Assembly (NCBI GenBank): GCA_028281045.1
Contig: JANQKP010000001.1
Location: 62,001-126,000 of the forward strand
Reading direction: 5' to 3'
From: Candidatus Altimarinota bacterium
GTDB taxonomy: Bacteria > Patescibacteriota > Gracilibacteria > UM-FILTER-43-11
Length of the DNA: 64,000 bases
The notes below the pieces were generated by a model that was not told the DNA's origin, made no database searches, and saw only the letters and a list, made by a program, of their open reading frames with translations. Numbering within the stretch: position 1 is the stretch's first letter; each line of letters opens with the position of its first letter. The translations under genes were made by a program, and so were the position numbers. Positions 520 through 56,784 of this stretch are shown piece after piece.

Positions 520-1778
520 TGGCCTTGATAGGTATAGACCACTTTACCTTGAGGGATACCTCCATAGTCTTTAATGAATCCAGGCATATCTGCATGGCCC
601 ACCATTTCTTGAAGTGGTCCTTCTAGCTTAAAGCCGGCTTTATCGAATGAACTAGCGGCTCCATCCACCTTGGTCACAAGGCCAATCTTCTGACTCAGGG
701 CATTGGCATGGGCTTTTGCATTTTCTAAGATCATTCTTCCGTAGCCATTAGACTTTGGCCCTGCCCAATACATGCCAAGCTCAGTCCACTGATGGGCTCT
801 TGGAATAAGAGAAACTCCTCCTAGCATAGAATTTTTCACCTTCATTAAGTGATGATAGGTGATGGCTTCTTCAATTTCTTTAGGACCTCTTTGTCTAAAT
901 GGTCCTTTGGCTTGCATAAGGTCTGCAAATACGGCTTCAATAATAGGAATTTCCTCAGGTTTCACCATAGGGTGCTCGTGTTTAAACAGATCAATCACCA
1001 TCGTTCCATATCCTTTCCAGCCTAGAAGCTCTTCTCTCAAGTATCCACCGCCAAGGGCAACCCCTTTGCTGGCTTTTGGAATTACTTCCATCATAAGATT
1101 GGCTTTATTCACCATGCCACCTTGGATGGTTCCATCGTCTATTAATGGGGCTAGTTCTTCTAGGGTGAGTACAGGGAATATATTTTTGTCTTTATCCCAA
1201 ATCCCATTGGAATCACTGAGCATCACAAGCTCATTGATTCTTCCATGGGCACTTAAAATCGCTTTCATCATGTGATCTGCATTCACATTCACAAAGCCAT
1301 TCTCTGCTTGTCCGATGAATTGGTAGACGCTGAGCATGTGACTAGGATCAAATTGGTCAATGTAAACCGGTTCACCCACAAAGCCATGAGCGCCTGCATC
1401 TAAGTAACCACACTTAATGGTTGCAGGATCTTGAAAATGTATAGGCACTGAAGCAAATAAGTCGGCCAGATAAGCACGGATTTCTTTGGCTGCAGGAATA
1501 AGGGCCTGATCAATGGCTTTTTTCTCGGTATAGCGAATGCCACCCGTTTTTTTAATAGATAACTTCTTATCTTCGTAATGTTTATCAATAATAGGTCCTC
1601 CACCCACATTTAAAATGAATTTAATCCCATATCTCATGAGTTCCATCATGGTTTCGGCATCGCGCTGAAACTCTGGGGTGTTTAAGACAGATCCACTCAC
1701 TCTAAGTAAGATGGTTTTTCCAGCATACAAATCAATGTAGGCCTCTTCCTGTGGTGTGTAGTGGGGGGAACTTTGCAT
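516..1778 (-). CDS. Bifunctional N-acetylglutamate synthase/kinase (amino acid kinase + GNAT)
   Basis: 420 residues. The first about 280 residues are an amino acid kinase domain of the acetylglutamate kinase type, with LRVSGSVL at 25-32 and NVGGGP at 57-62. The last about 130 residues look like an N-acetyltransferase domain, with the acetyl-CoA loop NGYGRMILENA and upstream ELGMYW. This order matches NAGS-K fusions, which make and then phosphorylate N-acetylglutamate, the first two steps of arginine (ornithine) synthesis. No other arginine gene is in the window. The ATG at 1776-1778 has no Shine-Dalgarno sequence and lies about 20 bases past the U-tract of an attenuator whose leader peptide is rich in Arg codons. 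That arrangement independently supports an arginine role. Confidence 0.82.
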   Translation of the reverse strand: MQSSPHYTPQEEAYIDLYAGKTILLRVSGSVLNTPEFQRDAETMMELMRYGIKFILNVGGGPIIDKHYEDKKLSIKKTGGIRYTEKKAIDQALIPAAKEIRAYLADLFASVPIHFQDPATIKCGYLDAGAHGFVGEPVYIDQFDPSHMLSVYQFIGQAENGFVNVNADHMMKAILSAHGRINELVMLSDSNGIWDKDKNIFPVLTLEELAPLIDDGTIQGGMVNKANLMMEVIPKASKGVALGGGYLREELLGWKGYGTMVIDLFKHEHPMVKPEEIPIIEAVFADLMQAKGPFRQRGPKEIEEAITYHHLMKVKNSMLGGVSLIPRAHQWTELGMYWAGPKSNGYGRMILENAKAHANALSQKIGLVTKVDGAASSFDKAGFKLEGPLQEMVGHADMPGFIKDYGGIPQGKVVYTYQGH

Positions 1779-2013: not shown

Positions 2014-2577
2014 ATGAAATTAATAGTGGGATTAGGAAACCCAGGGGATAAATATAAAGACACGCGTCATAACGCGGGCTTTATTGCGCTTGATGAGCTC
2101 GCTAGAGCAAATAGCCTAGAATTCAAAGCTTCTTCAAAGCATTTTGGAGATCTAGCCGAAGGCATGATCCAAAATGAGAAGGTGATTCTTTTAAAGCCTC
2201 AGACTTTTATGAATGTGTCTGGTAAAGCGGTAGCTTCTGTTTCTAATTTTTACAAAATAGATCCAGAAGACATTATTGTGCTTTTCGATGATGTGGATAT
2301 TAAAAGTGGAGAGCTGAGACTAAGAACCGAAGGCTCTGCTGGAGGACACAATGGGATTAAGTCTATTATTGCGAGCCTGGGAACTGATGCTTTTACCCGT
2401 GTGCGCATTGGAGTAGCGCCCATTCAAGAGTTTAATGGAGATTTAGCCGATTACGTCCTAGGAAGAATTTCTAAGGAAGAAGAAGGGGTTTTAATGCCTG
2501 TGATCGAAAATATTCCTTCTGTGATTGATACGATTTTAACTGAAAGCGTAGAGGTGGCTCAAAATAAATATAATTAG
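2014..2577 (+). CDS. pth: Peptidyl-tRNA hydrolase
   Basis: 187 residues, normal for the family (about 190). Begins MKLIVGLGNPG and contains TRHNAGF with the catalytic His near residue 20, the LLKPQTFMNVSG block, the catalytic Asp in LFDDVD, and GGHNGIKSI. The enzyme cleaves the ester bond of peptidyl-tRNAs dropped from ribosomes and recycles the tRNA in the cytoplasm. It is transcribed divergently from the arginine gene and followed by tRNA-Gln. The start is fixed by the conserved N-terminus and by a -10 box immediately upstream. Confidence 0.97.
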   Translation: MKLIVGLGNPGDKYKDTRHNAGFIALDELARANSLEFKASSKHFGDLAEGMIQNEKVILLKPQTFMNVSGKAVASVSNFYKIDPEDIIVLFDDVDIKSGELRLRTEGSAGGHNGIKSIIASLGTDAFTRVRIGVAPIQEFNGDLADYVLGRISKEEEGVLMPVIENIPSVIDTILTESVEVAQNKYN

Positions 2578-52398: not shown

Positions 52399-52474
52399 TG
52401 GAGCCACGACCCGGGTTTGAACCGGGGACCTCACCCTTACCATGGGTGCGCTCTACCGACTGAGCTATCGCGGC
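52399..52474 (-). tRNA. tRNA-Thr (anticodon GGT), CCA encoded
   Basis: Acceptor GCCGCGA/TCGTGGC (one G-U pair), anticodon arm CACCC-ATGGTAA-GGGTG giving GGT, T-arm GGTTTGAACCC, discriminator T, encoded CCA. Confidence 0.95.
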
Positions 52475-52559
52475 TTATTTCTGTTTGCCAAATGAGATTA
52501 CAGATTTGCTTTTTTAGCGTCAAGCCCTTATAGTGTTGAGCCATTCCTAATTAAATAAT

Positions 52560-52871
52560 ATGAAAGAATCTAAAGTAACAGTTTCGCACCCAATCAATCT
52601 TCAAGAGGCAGGAGCAGATGCTATTCTCTCAGGGGATTATGAATTAGCCATAGCTTACACAATAAAAGACGAAGGAACTGAGAATCATATCCTTCAGGAT
52701 TTTTACCATGGTGGTATTGATAAGGCCATGGAATTGTTGTTATCTAAATTAGGTGTTAATACAGATTCGACTGAGATAGATAGGGAAAAATTAAAATCTG
52801 CCCTTGTGCAGAGAATACAGTTGGCACAAGCGACCAGAACTGCGGTCGGAAAAATTACAAGATCAAGATAA
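52560..52871 (+). CDS. Hypothetical protein, 103 aa
   Basis: Not recognised. A small soluble helical protein (INLQEAGADAILSGDYELAIAYTIKD). It lies between two minus-strand tRNA genes, 11 bases from the 3' end of tRNA-Ser. A real gene seems likely because the start follows a TA-rich leader like other genes here. Confidence 0.5.
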   Translation: MKESKVTVSHPINLQEAGADAILSGDYELAIAYTIKDEGTENHILQDFYHGGIDKAMELLLSKLGVNTDSTEIDREKLKSALVQRIQLAQATRTAVGKITRSR

Positions 52872-52882
52872 ATTAATATAAA

Positions 52883-52972
52883 TGGAGGAGAGGAAGGGAT
52901 TCGAACCCTCGAAAGGCCTAAACCTTTACCCGCGTTCCAGGCGAGCCCATTCAACCACTCTGGCACCTCTCC
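52883..52972 (-). tRNA. tRNA-Ser (anticodon GGA), CCA encoded
   Basis: Class II tRNA with a long variable arm. Acceptor GGAGAGG/CCTCTCC, anticodon loop CTGGAAC giving GGA, T-arm GGTTCGAATCC, discriminator T, encoded CCA. Confidence 0.95.
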
Positions 52973-52982
52973 GAGATAACAA

Positions 52983-53005
52983 AAAAGGCCAACAAGTGGC
53001 CTTTT
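52983..53005. terminator. Terminator after rpmB
   Basis: AAAAGGCCA-(5)-TGGCCTTTT, a symmetric hairpin flanked by A and T runs, 20 bases past the bL28 stop on the minus strand. Confidence 0.85.
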
Positions 53006-53024
53006 CTTAATTTTAGATCAAAAA

Positions 53025-53243
53025 CTACTTAGTTGCTTTTGCCTTTTTCTTACGAGCAGGCTTCGAAAGTGTTCTAAGCGCGGAAGTAGAAATACGCATG
53101 GTTTCGTATTTACCAGTTTTAGGGTTGAAAACCTTCTTCTTTTGAAGGTTTGGAAGAAAGCGACGTTTCGTGCGTCTCACAGAGTGAGATACATTGTTTC
53201 CACTAGAAGGTCTCTTTCCACTGATTTGACATACTTTTGGCAT
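53025..53243 (-). CDS. rpmB: Ribosomal protein bL28
   Basis: 72 residues: MPKVCQISGKRPSSGNNVSHSVRRTKRRFLPNLQ is the family N-terminus, with NPKTGKYETMRISTSALRTL and a Lys-rich end. A large-subunit protein, ordinary length. Confidence 0.95.
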   Translation of the reverse strand: MPKVCQISGKRPSSGNNVSHSVRRTKRRFLPNLQKKKVFNPKTGKYETMRISTSALRTLSKPARKKKAKATK

Positions 53244-53306
53244 AGTAGTTGTTTTTTAGAGCGCATTGAGGTTATCATTACCGCTGTATCTTGTCAAATA
53301 ATAATT

Positions 53307-53918
53307 ATGCAGCTTATTGCGCTCATTATTGCACTGGTAGTATGTATTTCGGTTCACGAGGCAGCTCATGCCTGGGTCGCCTGGAAACTAGGGGATCCTA
53401 CGGCGAAACACGCCGGAAGAGTTACTTTAAACCCCAAGGCTCATCTAGATGTACTTGGAACCCTGATGATTTTCATTGCCCACTTTGGATGGGGGAAGCC
53501 TGTGCCATACAATGATAATAACTTGAAGCATCCAAGGCGTGATGCAGCACTTATTTCACTCGCAGGGCCCGCTAGTAATTTGCTAACCGCCCTTGTGATT
53601 GCCTTTTTAATTAAATATCTGCCTATTTCTGGATTCTTATTCTTAGTATTACAGTCTATTTTCGCCCTTAGCATTATTCTAATGCTCTTCAACCTGCTTC
53701 CTATTGCGCCCTTAGACGGTTCTAAGTTTGTAGGCGCCTTTATTCCAGAATCTAAACAAAACTGGTATGAAAGTTTTGTGCACCAAGGTCCTATATGGAT
53801 TATTTTGATCATTGTAGGGGACAGGCTGATCAATGAAATTGTAGGCTTTTCTTTCTTAGGAACCTACTTGCAATACGGCTACGACTTTGTGCAAGCAGGC
53901 ATCTTTTTAATCACTTAA
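53307..53918 (+). CDS. Site-2 protease-like membrane metalloprotease (M50)
   Basis: 203 residues from the ATG at 53307; the longer upstream frame runs across rpmB and is rejected. Zinc motif HEAAH in ISVHEAAHAWVAWKLGD, the family's GRVTLNPKAHLD, and the third ligand in LFNLLPIAPLDGSK. Four to five membrane segments. Small S2P-like enzymes cut membrane proteins, often anti-sigma factors; the target here is unknown. Confidence 0.92.
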   Translation: MQLIALIIALVVCISVHEAAHAWVAWKLGDPTAKHAGRVTLNPKAHLDVLGTLMIFIAHFGWGKPVPYNDNNLKHPRRDAALISLAGPASNLLTALVIAFLIKYLPISGFLFLVLQSIFALSIILMLFNLLPIAPLDGSKFVGAFIPESKQNWYESFVHQGPIWIILIIVGDRLINEIVGFSFLGTYLQYGYDFVQAGIFLIT

Positions 53919-53992
53919 AAAAGTACGAGAAAAGGGCTGTGTCAACTTCAGAAACTTGATTTCTGAGTAAATTTTTGGTTCAATGTATTTGA

Positions 53993-54157
53993 AAACAAAA
54001 ACAAACACTCGAAGTTGTGCGTCATCGCTCACGTATATTGATTCGTTCTTAACCTTTACGGGATTATGAGTCTTCCCGCTGGCAGTACCAGCCCGGCTCT
54101 TCCCACCTTAGACCCTTCGGGTCACTTATATGGAGAAAGCGACAAGTTGGAGTTTTT
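53993..54157 (+). ncRNA. Candidate structured RNA between convergent genes (unassigned)
   Basis: About 165 bases with no ORF. The ends can pair: AAAACAAAAAC with GTTTTTGTTTT (11 bp), then TCGCT with AGCGA and CGTATA with TATATG. Inside are three clean hairpins: CGGGA/TCCCG, GCTGG/CCAGC (loop CAGTA) and GACCC/GGGTC (loop TTC). A weak promoter (TTGATT, 17 bases, TTCAAT) precedes it on the plus strand. It lacks recognisable SRP, tmRNA or RNase P core sequences; 6S RNA or a novel RNA remain possible. Strand is uncertain. Confidence 0.4.
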
Positions 54158-54160
54158 GTT

Positions 54161-54505
54161 TTACCCCAGTTTAGATACCACTAGCCCTATGGGCTTTTTT
54201 ACATTGTTGTAATTGGTGCTATCTGCCTCGTTAAGTCCCACAAGGTTATAGCCATGTTCTGTGTAAGCCTCTACGCATTTAATAAGCACGTTGCCATTGT
54301 GCTCAAAAGCGCCAATGTCTCCAGCGTTTAGTCTATCTAACGGCTTAACTAAAACTTCCTCTCCAGGACTTAGAAGAGGAAGCATAGAATGTCCTTCTAT
54401 TTTAAAGCGCTTTCTTTTGCCCACAAAAAGCAAAAGAAGCTCTTTTAGGTTAGCTGGCGGTATACCAGGCAACGTCTTTTCCTTTAGATTCCCAGAAGAT
54501 GTCAT
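54161..54505 (-). CDS. sodX: S24/S26-type signal peptidase, probable Ni-SOD maturation protease
   Basis: 114 residues. FKIEGHSMLPLLSPGEEVLV carries the nucleophilic Ser, and NVLIKCVEAY the general-base Lys, as in LexA/signal peptidase I folds. In other bacteria such a peptidase beside sodN removes the Ni-SOD propeptide. Here it follows sodN with a 56-base overlap. The N-terminal 20 residues lie within the overlap, so the true start might be later. Confidence 0.8.
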   Translation of the reverse strand: MTSSGNLKEKTLPGIPPANLKELLLLFVGKRKRFKIEGHSMLPLLSPGEEVLVKPLDRLNAGDIGAFEHNGNVLIKCVEAYTEHGYNLVGLNEADSTNYNNVKKPIGLVVSKLG

Positions 54506-54905
54506 GGATTTTTTGAATATTATCTAGTGCTTCTTGAGCTACCGCTGGATCTACATGTTGTTTAGCCTTAGAAAGAAGCTTGGTGGTTTGCCAGATAAGA
54601 TCGTGAAGATCTGGATACTTCTCTAGATGCTCTGGCTTGAAGTAATCGGTCCAAAGAACCAGCACTTCATCTTTAGCAAGCTTAGCTTGCTCTTCTTTAA
54701 TATTCGCATAGCGTGCGAAATTATTTTTGTCGTGAATATCTGTGCTATCTGCAAGGCCTTCCATTTTTTTAGACATAGAAAGCACCGCTTCAGCGGCAAT
54801 GCGCGCAGAGGCAGGATCATAGACTCCACAAGGGCCATCACAATGGGCAAAGGCCACAGGCGCATCAGTTTGTTTAATAATTTTGGTTAGTACTTTAGTA
54901 ATCAT
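54450..54905 (-). CDS. sodN: Nickel superoxide dismutase
   Basis: 151 residues. A 20-residue leader ending AFA is followed by HCDGPCGVYDP, the nickel-hook motif: after cleavage the N-terminal His1, Cys2 and Cys6 bind nickel. The rest is the four-helix bundle of the family (ASARIAAEAVLSM ... WTDYFKPEHLEKYP ... IHDIFWESKG). It destroys superoxide. Its protease overlaps downstream and a small His-rich membrane protein lies 4 bases upstream. Confidence 0.94.
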   Translation of the reverse strand: MITKVLTKIIKQTDAPVAFAHCDGPCGVYDPASARIAAEAVLSMSKKMEGLADSTDIHDKNNFARYANIKEEQAKLAKDEVLVLWTDYFKPEHLEKYPDLHDLIWQTTKLLSKAKQHVDPAVAQEALDNIQKIHDIFWESKGKDVAWYTAS

Positions 54906-54909
54906 TCAA

Positions 54910-55092
54910 TTATTCGTTAGTGTTTTTAATAAGAATAAGCGCTGAAATAAGAAGCGCAAAAGTGAGAGGAGCAATATGAAATGGATCCGTTAAAAAGTGG
55001 ATGGTCGTCGCTTCTGCATGAGCAGCAGCGAGATCTGGATGCGCGTAGGCATTGACCGGAACCATCATAAGCAAGAATGCAAGTTTCTTCAT
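54910..55092 (-). CDS. Small His-rich membrane protein beside sodN
   Basis: 60 residues. A signal peptide with a predicted cut after NAYA would leave a mature N-terminus HPDLAAAHAEATTIH, then FLTDPFHIAPL and one membrane helix. Five His in about 25 residues suggest metal binding. Position at the head of the sodN operon suggests a role in nickel delivery or sensing. No family recognised. Confidence 0.62.
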   Translation of the reverse strand: MKKLAFLLMMVPVNAYAHPDLAAAHAEATTIHFLTDPFHIAPLTFALLISALILIKNTNE

Positions 55093-55165
55093 GTTATTTT
55101 GTTATTTGCAATCATCAGATTATAGAAACACTCATCTTGAGTAAAGTTTAAATCTCTATATAATT

Positions 55166-55738
55166 ATGCATATGAATAAACCCGTACAAGACGGTGACGT
55201 TGAGATCGTTTACCAAGGAAAAATTGTAGAGGTTGTTAAAACTCCAATGAAAATTGGAGAAAAGAAGGTGTCTTTCGAAAGCGCACGTCGCGCTCCAGGA
55301 GTGAGACTTCTTTTTGTGAGAGATAGAAAGATTCTTATGAGTAGAGAATACCGCAGCGAAATACAAGATTACGATTACAGACTTCCTGGTGGAAAAGTAT
55401 TCGATACCCTCGAAGAATATAATGCAGCACCCCAAGATGATGCCTCTATGGCTAAGCATGCAGAAGCGGCAGCCATTAAAGAAGCTATTGAAGAAGTGGG
55501 ACTTGTAGCTAAGAATCTTCAGCTTATTCACATTTCACATTCAGGGGCTACCGTAGTATGGAACCTGTTCTACTTTGTTATTGAAGATTTTGAAGAAGGG
55601 GAGCGTGAGCTTGAAGATGGTGAGGTGATAGAGCCAGAATGGAAAACCTTTGAAGAAGCTGAGAAGCTTTGCTTAGACGGATCTGTTAAAGAAGATCGCT
55701 CAGCCGCGGTTCTGTTGAGATTTTTAGCCACGCAGTAG
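55166..55738 (+). CDS. NUDIX hydrolase
   Basis: 190 residues. The Nudix box starts at LPGGKVFDT and ends AAAIKEAIEEVGL; about 20 extra residues sit between the two halves, and Lys replaces the usual Arg before E. The overall shape is that of ADP-sugar pyrophosphatases (VRLLFVRDRKILMSREYR). The exact substrate is unknown. Its TAG overlaps the GTG start of smpB (TAGTG). Confidence 0.87.
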   Translation: MHMNKPVQDGDVEIVYQGKIVEVVKTPMKIGEKKVSFESARRAPGVRLLFVRDRKILMSREYRSEIQDYDYRLPGGKVFDTLEEYNAAPQDDASMAKHAEAAAIKEAIEEVGLVAKNLQLIHISHSGATVVWNLFYFVIEDFEEGERELEDGEVIEPEWKTFEEAEKLCLDGSVKEDRSAAVLLRFLATQ

Positions 55739-56181
55739 TGAAAGTAATTCAGAAAAACAAGAAGGCCCTATTCGATTACGAGATTCTCGAAAATTTCAAG
55801 GCGGGACTTATGCTTACCGGCCCTGAAGTGAAGTCTGTACGTAATGGAGATGTGAACCTAAAAGGGGCTTATATTTCTACAGCAGAAGATGCCCCTGTGC
55901 TTAAAGGATGTAATATTTCTAGGTACCGTTATGACAGTACAGAGTCTCATGAGCCTATGCGAGATCGTAAACTTTTATTAAAGCAGCGCGAAATAGATAA
56001 GATTACGCGCGCTTTAAACGAACAAGGCGTGACGGTAGTGCCTATAGCTATTGGCCTAGAAGGGAAGTTTATAAAACTAGAAATTGCTACCGCTCGTGGG
56101 AAGAAAAAACATGATAAACGGAACGTGATAAAAGAGCGCTCGCAAAAACGAGACATGGCACGTATAATGAAGTCTAAATAA
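55738..56181 (+). CDS. smpB: SsrA-binding protein SmpB
   Basis: 147 residues starting at GTG. KALFDYEILENFKAGLMLTGPEVKSVR and the oligonucleotide-binding core are typical, and the C-terminal tail has GKKKHDKRNVIKERSQKRD. It carries tmRNA to stalled ribosomes. No tmRNA gene is seen in this window. RecR follows 3 bases later. Confidence 0.96.
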   Translation: MKVIQKNKKALFDYEILENFKAGLMLTGPEVKSVRNGDVNLKGAYISTAEDAPVLKGCNISRYRYDSTESHEPMRDRKLLLKQREIDKITRALNEQGVTVVPIAIGLEGKFIKLEIATARGKKKHDKRNVIKERSQKRDMARIMKSK

Positions 56182-56184
56182 TTT

Positions 56185-56784
56185 ATGTCACATTTACCTG
56201 AAAACATTCAGCGGACTATTGAGGAGTTTTCTAAACTCCCTGGAATTGGAACCAAGTCGGCAGAACGCTTAACGTTCTACCTGCTTCGTAAACGCGATCA
56301 GGATGTGAGAGAATTTGGAGACGCCCTAACAGGACTCAAGCAGGGGATTAACTACTGCCAAATTTGTAGCAACCTGTGTACTAAAGATATTTGTGGCATT
56401 TGCCAAAATGAATCTAGAAATAAGAATGTGATTTGTGTGGTCGAAGAAATGCTAGATCTGATTGCCATGGAAAAAGCCAGCGACTTTAAAGGTGTGTTTC
56501 ACGTGCTTCACGGTGTGATTTCACCCGTAGAAGGGGTTGGACCAGATGAGCTCCGTATTGCAGAGCTAATAAGCCGCGTAAAAGCCGGAGACATTGAAGA
56601 AATTATTCTAGCGCTTAATCCTTCTATGGAAGGAGAAGCCACAGCCGCTTACATTGTGCGTAACCTAGAAGGACAAGACGTTAAAATCACCAGGCTCGCT
56701 CGTGGAATCCCTGTGGGAGGCGACCTTGAATACGCTGACACACAAACGCTGCGTCAGGCGATGCAAAACAGAAGTCAGTACTAG
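56185..56784 (+). CDS. recR: Recombination protein RecR
   Basis: 199 residues. Helix-hairpin-helix KLPGIGTKSAERLTFYLL, a zinc site with four Cys (CQIC-x5-C-x4-CGIC), then TOPRIM (VICVVEEMLDLIAMEK) and the C-terminal Walker-like ARGIPVGGDLEYAD. It works with RecO/RecF in gap repair. Its TAG shares CTAG with the stop of the VanW gene. Confidence 0.96.
   Translation: MSHLPENIQRTIEEFSKLPGIGTKSAERLTFYLLRKRDQDVREFGDALTGLKQGINYCQICSNLCTKDICGICQNESRNKNVICVVEEMLDLIAMEKASDFKGVFHVLHGVISPVEGVGPDELRIAELISRVKAGDIEEIILALNPSMEGEATAAYIVRNLEGQDVKITRLARGIPVGGDLEYADTQTLRQAMQNRSQY

Follow-up and report, generated by a model that had tools for sequence, protein, structure and literature searches.

Where nickel superoxide dismutase (Ni-SOD) is encoded in cyanobacteria, SodT/UreH permeases have been described beside its gene, sodN, and proposed as nickel suppliers; in that account a membrane partner is encoded together with sodN and sodX, SodT has six spans and UreH a His-rich cytoplasmic loop (PMC4284471). 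A second class of permeases, HupE/UreJ (PF04955), is characterized by the first-span signature HPXXGXDH, and HupE is believed to cross the membrane six times (PMC7689651). The leader ORFs CutF, CruR and CzcI (the DUF2946 group) are described as short, with a signal peptide and a metal-ligand motif, and as lying directly 5′ of a metalloenzyme or transporter gene (PMC9973294). Anglerases Ang-1 and Ang-2, found partly by using a Ni-SOD signal peptide as bait, are reported as N-terminal-His domains fused to HupE/UreJ-2, the His being exposed once the leader is cleaved, and are proposed to capture metal for the permease (PMC12537917). Finally, Pfam names DUF6732 (PF20506) as a family of unknown function, and that name was not found in a full-text search of the open-licence literature. 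To our knowledge, the route by which nickel reaches Ni-SOD is poorly known where neither SodT nor another importer accompanies it.

The window (the whole 64,000-nucleotide stretch analysed here, from a 1.2-Mb patescibacterial genome in nine contigs) carries a sodN operon that shares features with each of these systems. As in the SodT/UreH operons, a membrane partner is encoded together with sodN and a sodX-like gene, but here that partner is a 60-residue protein with one span. As with the anglerases, an N-terminal His would be exposed once the leader is cleaved, although each of those is described as a folded domain of roughly 175 residues joined to a permease, whereas the window protein is a short segment on a single span. 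Such a small membrane protein is an easily tested candidate for nickel supply, and we propose, with a probability of roughly 0.4, that it is a membrane-anchored nickel-capture accessory for Ni-SOD, replacing SodT or HupE in the sodN operon. The protein would be exported and, its leader lost, the mature chain would start with His; anchored through its one span, the His segment facing outward, it would capture nickel for Ni-SOD production and hand that nickel over, while SodN would be made in the cytoplasm and lose its leader to the SodX-like protease. It would be built like the first segment of HupE (A/HPxH, the slash marking the leader junction, followed by H-x6-H at the entrance to the first span) and would take the place that in other sodN operons belongs to a nickel permease, either SodT/UreH-like or HupE. 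The proposal starts from direct observations of gene order, family membership, resemblance to HupE, recurrence beside sodN and the nesting of SodN in the tree.

Gene order and the superoxide dismutase

The transcript order on the minus strand of 54161-55092 is small gene, sodN, sodX-like ORF, and an ORF check found the coordinates and three-gene arrangement of the first-pass annotation to be correct.

54910..55092, minus strand: small gene, 60 aa, with leader and C-terminal membrane span, operon gene 1 (ORF; ten-relative profile; alignment A4; AF2)
54450..54905, minus strand: sodN, nickel superoxide dismutase (TIGR02753, PF09055, PDB Ni-SOD 1t6i)
54161..54505, minus strand: sodX-like S26/S24-type protease ORF, overlapping the end of sodN (PF00717; TIGR02754 below cut-off)
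55093..55165, no strand: 73-nt divergent intergenic region between the small gene (minus) and a NUDIX hydrolase (plus) (sequence)

The small-gene stop lies 4 nt before the sodN ATG on the same strand, and when the sodX-like ORF is read from its first ATG, its overlap with sodN is 56 nt, which would drop to about 23 nt with an alignment-consistent TTG start. A TATAAT on the minus strand about 25 nt 5′ of the small-gene ATG, within the intergenic region, is only suggestive because a promoter scan of 55093..55165 gave no minus-strand site. The three genes are best explained as one sodN operon. Divergent from it, on the plus strand at window 55166-56784, a NUDIX hydrolase, SmpB and RecR follow in a row.

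SodN matches TIGR02753 at 202.9 bits (cut-off 90) and PF09055 at E 6e-47, and aligns with the solved Ni-SOD structure 1t6i from the hook onward (E 1e-34). Its leader of 20 residues ends AFA/HCDGPCGVY and leads into a nickel hook of the form HCxxPCGxY, so that the earlier description of a sodN with intact hook and leader is borne out; judged by these matches, its identity as a Ni-SOD is beyond doubt. Ni-SOD was detected in 30 of 379 sampled genomes of the phylum and in 6 of 192 near relatives, the window's own genome being counted in both. For comparison of neighbourhoods we used 54 sodN loci: 19 from the deltaproteobacterial phylum, one on a Novosphingobium plasmid (L049), and 34 from the same phylum, the last made up of four from the near-relative search and thirty from the 379-genome search with the window's own copy included (L007 was not counted, as it is the same place as L036). 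Some of these 34 are short-flanked, for example L046 with 1785 bases.

The first-pass annotation had also taken Ni-SOD as a sign of oxygen exposure in a lineage usually considered fermentative. The enzyme stands, but a superoxide dismutase is unsurprising in this group given the 30 genomes above, and exposure to oxygen has already been discussed for it (in PMC8672522 and PMC9938205). One groundwater study reports Fe/Mn-SOD from most of its patescibacterial MAGs (PMC8672522), and a Saccharibacteria genome appears, as described in PMC6031116, to encode Ni-SOD. The terms ‘Ni-SOD’ and ‘Patescibacteria’ together were not found in a full-text search of the open-licence literature.

The sodX-like ORF scores 33.3 bits against PF00717, above the cut-off of 23.3, and 27.8 bits against the dedicated model TIGR02754, below its cut-off of 63.25; GHSMLP and VLIK motifs were recognized in it by eye, and the Novosphingobium copy likewise falls under the TIGR02754 cut-off (43.7 bits). 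By its PF00717 match we take it to be a serine-lysine protease of the S24/S26 type. The earlier reading as an overlapping maturation protease is thus upheld in the overlap, the PF00717 match and the position after sodN, though not by the dedicated model. A motif-defined SodX-like ORF lies 3′ of sodN in 32 of the 34 same-phylum loci, with one of the others cut short and sodN not located in the second. A second, distant SodN type with an HCQ or HCE hook was seen in the deltaproteobacterial phylum (L087, L088, L089 and L093-L097), with signal-peptide-like leaders and a SodX-like motif 3′ in only one of its eight loci; genomes G700 and G731 carry both types. Since SodN leaders of the window type are, in contrast, short, weakly hydrophobic and accompanied by SodX-like ORFs, the window-type Ni-SOD appears to need cytoplasmic nickel.

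The small protein and its family

The small protein consists of a hydrophobic leader (recognized by eye), an Ala17/His18 junction, His25, His32-x6-His39 and a C-terminal membrane span; its His residues number four (18, 25, 32 and 39), not five as had been counted at first. All 13 rows of the family alignment A4 have the Ala-His junction unchanged behind the leader, which supports the earlier prediction that the mature N-terminus is His. An AF2 model places a helix at residues 37-59 with a pLDDT of about 89 and the remainder low; built on a two-row alignment, the model as a whole is weak (mean pLDDT 67.6). The protein matched no family in Pfam, searched to E up to 1, or in NCBIfam, and a PDB search with the family profile returned one chance match only (E 0.22).

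Single-sequence and two-row searches had suggested that the gene was an orphan, a status overturned by the profile of its relatives. A single-sequence search of 184 relatives gave chance-level matches only, as did a two-row profile on the 379 phylum genomes apart from the window gene itself; plasmids gave no match, either by tblastn with the small protein or in searches using two of its relatives. L008 and the other weak rows of these searches were set aside as low complexity, interrupted by internal stops or inside long unrelated ORFs, and L078 was discarded with its pattern match in an unrelated frame. Used to search about 85,000 species, the 60-residue sequence found one relative (L047), a 73-aa ORF of ‘Deltaproteobacteria bacterium isolate OFTM107’ that has HFLTDPFH in common with the window protein and matches DUF6732 at 8e-5 (below cut-off) and, weakly, HupE at 0.022. 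A two-row profile then gave 13 matches in 188 genomes of the deltaproteobacterial phylum. Ten are small proteins of one plan (the L047 gene being counted again among them as L065), and three response-regulator-like proteins (L072, L076, L077) were dropped before the family alignment. The shared plan is a leader, A/HPxH, about ten residues, HxLTDPFH or a shorter variant, a span and a mostly Arg-rich end. Like the window protein, DUF6732 members are small, putatively exported and single-spanned with an A/HPGH leader junction; 10 of 12 family rows match DUF6732 at E up to 1, whereas the window protein itself does not. Within this family, which stands close to DUF6732, the window protein is a divergent member.

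The likeness to HupE/UreJ lies in the leader ending A/H, the HPxH and the H-x6-H at the first span, everything past that span being missing from the one-span window protein. When four small proteins are aligned jointly with four HupE starts, A17, H18, H32 and H39 are invariant, and a profile-profile comparison of the family with HupE gave a probability of 89.9 over 51 columns. When HFLTDPFH of the window protein is set against HPXXGXDH of HupE, the two His and their spacing agree but P, G and D are absent. Common descent of the small protein and the first segment of HupE is suggested by these results, and only suggested, because the hydrophobic leader supplies part of the profile-profile signal.

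With a HupE-like motif at the entrance to its span, the protein might itself be the importer, single spans oligomerizing into a minimal nickel (or cobalt) channel that goes back to the first HupE helix. As this idea would have it, HupE was not found in the window's genome by a search that was positive in 9 of 184 genomes and matched a Synechococcus control. However, six spans are attributed to HupE (PMC7689651), the oligomer is hypothetical, and the span holds no His or acidic residue after His39 until the last residue; we regard a channel of this kind as very improbable. A permease of the type found at L083 (see below) was found in none of 182 genomes, a set that included no genome with a known match. 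Outside the window's family a single class mate has sodN (L106, genome G058), and a full HupE is encoded elsewhere in its genome.

It is also conceivable, if quite unlikely in our view, that the small gene works as a nascent-chain metal sensor in the manner of CutF and CruR, co-translational export sensing outside nickel and setting sodN translation, with the finished protein of minor importance. In size and position the gene resembles the CutF type, being under 150 aa and first in the operon, with a putative signal peptide and a same-strand gene within 1000 nt, and translational coupling is plausible because the small gene ends 4 nt upstream and sodN has no Shine-Dalgarno-like stretch in the preceding 20 nt. 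CutF-like proteins with His motifs alone are, moreover, described as adjoining HupE/UreJ genes (PMC9973294). In contrast, the CutF survey filters on a PP motif within the final 15 residues, and this motif is absent from the window protein, whose C-terminal end is FALLISALILIKNTNE, as it is from the two sodN-adjacent relatives described below (L079 and L090), and the window protein has no DUF2946 match in Pfam. Two folds of the junction RNA gave no more structure than shuffles (z 0.18 and -0.90), and a start-site-masking hairpin is therefore not evident.

Small genes and permeases beside sodN

The nickel-capture proposal draws on what lies beside sodN elsewhere. A profile built from ten relatives, the window protein excluded, was used to scan all reading-frame segments of 25 residues or more, first at 46 loci (3410 segments) and then at all 54 (3940 segments). 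Four of the 3940 segments stand out, the next best having E 1.4. The window small gene, left out of the profile, scores E 1.2e-10 (38.8 bits). In the deltaproteobacterial phylum, L079 (E 1.5e-8) has a 60-aa gene with its stop 13 nt 5′ of sodN and L090 (E 0.0023) a 62-aa gene ending 10 nt 5′ of it; both genes have the plan leader-A/H(P or T)GH-span and lie directly 5′ of sodN on the same strand. The fourth segment, on the Novosphingobium plasmid (E 1.9e-6), belongs to a complete HupE (PF04955, 8.3e-47) directly 5′ of sodN, in an operon with a SodX-like ORF behind sodN. Shuffled segments reached a best E of 0.051, 0.92 and 2.2 in three runs. At 15.4 bits L090 is outscored by segments of a hand-picked control set (16.4 and 18.9, plus a true HupE at 24.1), and its case therefore rests on its position and on its protein clearing the DUF6732 cut-off (28.6 against 27 bits). 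The small-protein family thus recurs, rarely, beside sodN in another phylum, the small gene being missing at 17 of the 19 deltaproteobacterial-phylum loci.

Within its own phylum the small gene was found by the profile scan beside none of the 33 other sodN loci, and conservation next to sodN in relatives, on which the first-pass annotation had staked its nickel idea, fails; the survey of sodN neighbourhoods it had called for yielded homologues in another phylum (L079 and L090) and none at home. These 33 absences agree with the view that the gene is an incidental neighbour, a general DUF6732-like small envelope protein placed upstream of sodN by chance and with no link to nickel or SodN. So do the unrelated genes that adjoin the majority of family members found, and the genome of L047, in which sodN was searched for and not detected. 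Yet two genomes of another phylum have a similar gene directly 5′ of sodN and in the same orientation, although such matches are rare there (at E 0.01, 6 of 52 genomes of that class, with these sodN neighbours, which were themselves in the model, as the best two), and HupE occupies the same slot in Novosphingobium. We consider chance placement somewhat unlikely, while taking it as a serious alternative.

The slot beside sodN holds a different kind of membrane protein at two loci in the same SodN clade as the window:

L083, 2021-2746, minus strand: permease-like protein with His-rich loop, beside sodN
L086, 2176-2958, plus strand: permease-like protein with His-rich loop, beside sodN

The two proteins share 45% identity, have no match in Pfam and show sub-threshold matches to metal-efflux proteins only; going by the description in PMC4284471, they are probably SodT/UreH relatives outside cyanobacteria.

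A nickel-handling role for the small protein is reasonable because the family is real, two sodN operons of a distant phylum have the small gene and a third has HupE. What counts against nickel capture as proposed here is that one span alone makes no permease, that SodN looks cytoplasmic, and that neither HupE nor an L083-type permease turned up in the window's genome to take over captured nickel. The earlier suggestion of an undescribed nickel chaperone or sensor therefore keeps its nickel, whereas ‘undescribed’ needs qualifying for a protein in or near DUF6732 that resembles the start of HupE. Despite the failed conservation test in close relatives, that hypothesis is better founded than the sequence alone allowed, because the family recurs beside sodN and resembles the HupE entry segment.

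Ancestry of sodN and an adjoining RNA candidate

A SodN tree was built from 53 sequences of the 54 loci (L027 was left out, its sodN not being located by script). The window SodN is one of 5 own-family rows that share a clade (100/98) with 11 rows of the deltaproteobacterial-phylum HCDGPCG type; it stands next to L083 (95/83), while the four other own-family SodNs form a separate group within the same clade (100/97). AU tests reject a single clade of the window with these four (p 0.013) and of all 33 patescibacterial SodN rows (p 0.0004), p values that are somewhat optimistic because the tested groups were chosen with the tree in view. Since the window SodN nests in a deltaproteobacterial clade apart from own-family SodNs, its gene was likely acquired from, or exchanged with, a deltaproteobacterial lineage, and at least one, perhaps two, transfers of sodN between phyla are likely; we infer that the small gene was transferred along with it. 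The tree also presents a patescibacterium with an antioxidant enzyme nested in the clade of a distant phylum, away from the copies of its relatives.

It is tempting to extend nickel capture to the family as a whole. DUF6732-like single-span proteins may be stand-alone metal-entry segments of HupE, that is, anchored peptides with an N-terminal His that capture nickel or another metal, and that on two or more occasions were taken into sodN operons and travelled with sodN between a deltaproteobacterial lineage and a patescibacterium of reduced genome. We hold this wider reading to be unlikely as it stands; it would nonetheless be a first functional hypothesis for this Pfam family.

An RNA switch at the sodN start was considered and rejected, the operon strand giving only a chance-level plant snoRNA call and no unusual fold. 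Separately, a structured RNA candidate adjoins sodN in all five sodN genomes of the window's family, with 72% mean column identity and compensatory change in 13 of 50 consensus pairs:

54004-54157, plus strand: window copy
2036-2215, plus strand: L003 copy
2163-2345, plus strand: L005 copy
1212-1392, minus strand: L006 copy
1160-1345, minus strand: L004 copy

The window copy scores 30.6 bits against 6S RNA, below the Rfam cut-off of 46.4, and the L003 and L006 copies are unmatched to 6S at E up to 10. In the four relatives the RNA candidate is divergent upstream of sodN; in the window it is convergent behind sodX. Around this site, window 52399-54157 and L003 1037-3438 both carry ribosomal protein L28, an M50 peptidase and a pair of tRNA genes, which in the window are those for Thr and Ser. 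In L003, sodN and the RNA lie between the two tRNAs, and in the window they lie past the M50 gene, as if the sodN-RNA unit had been placed twice.
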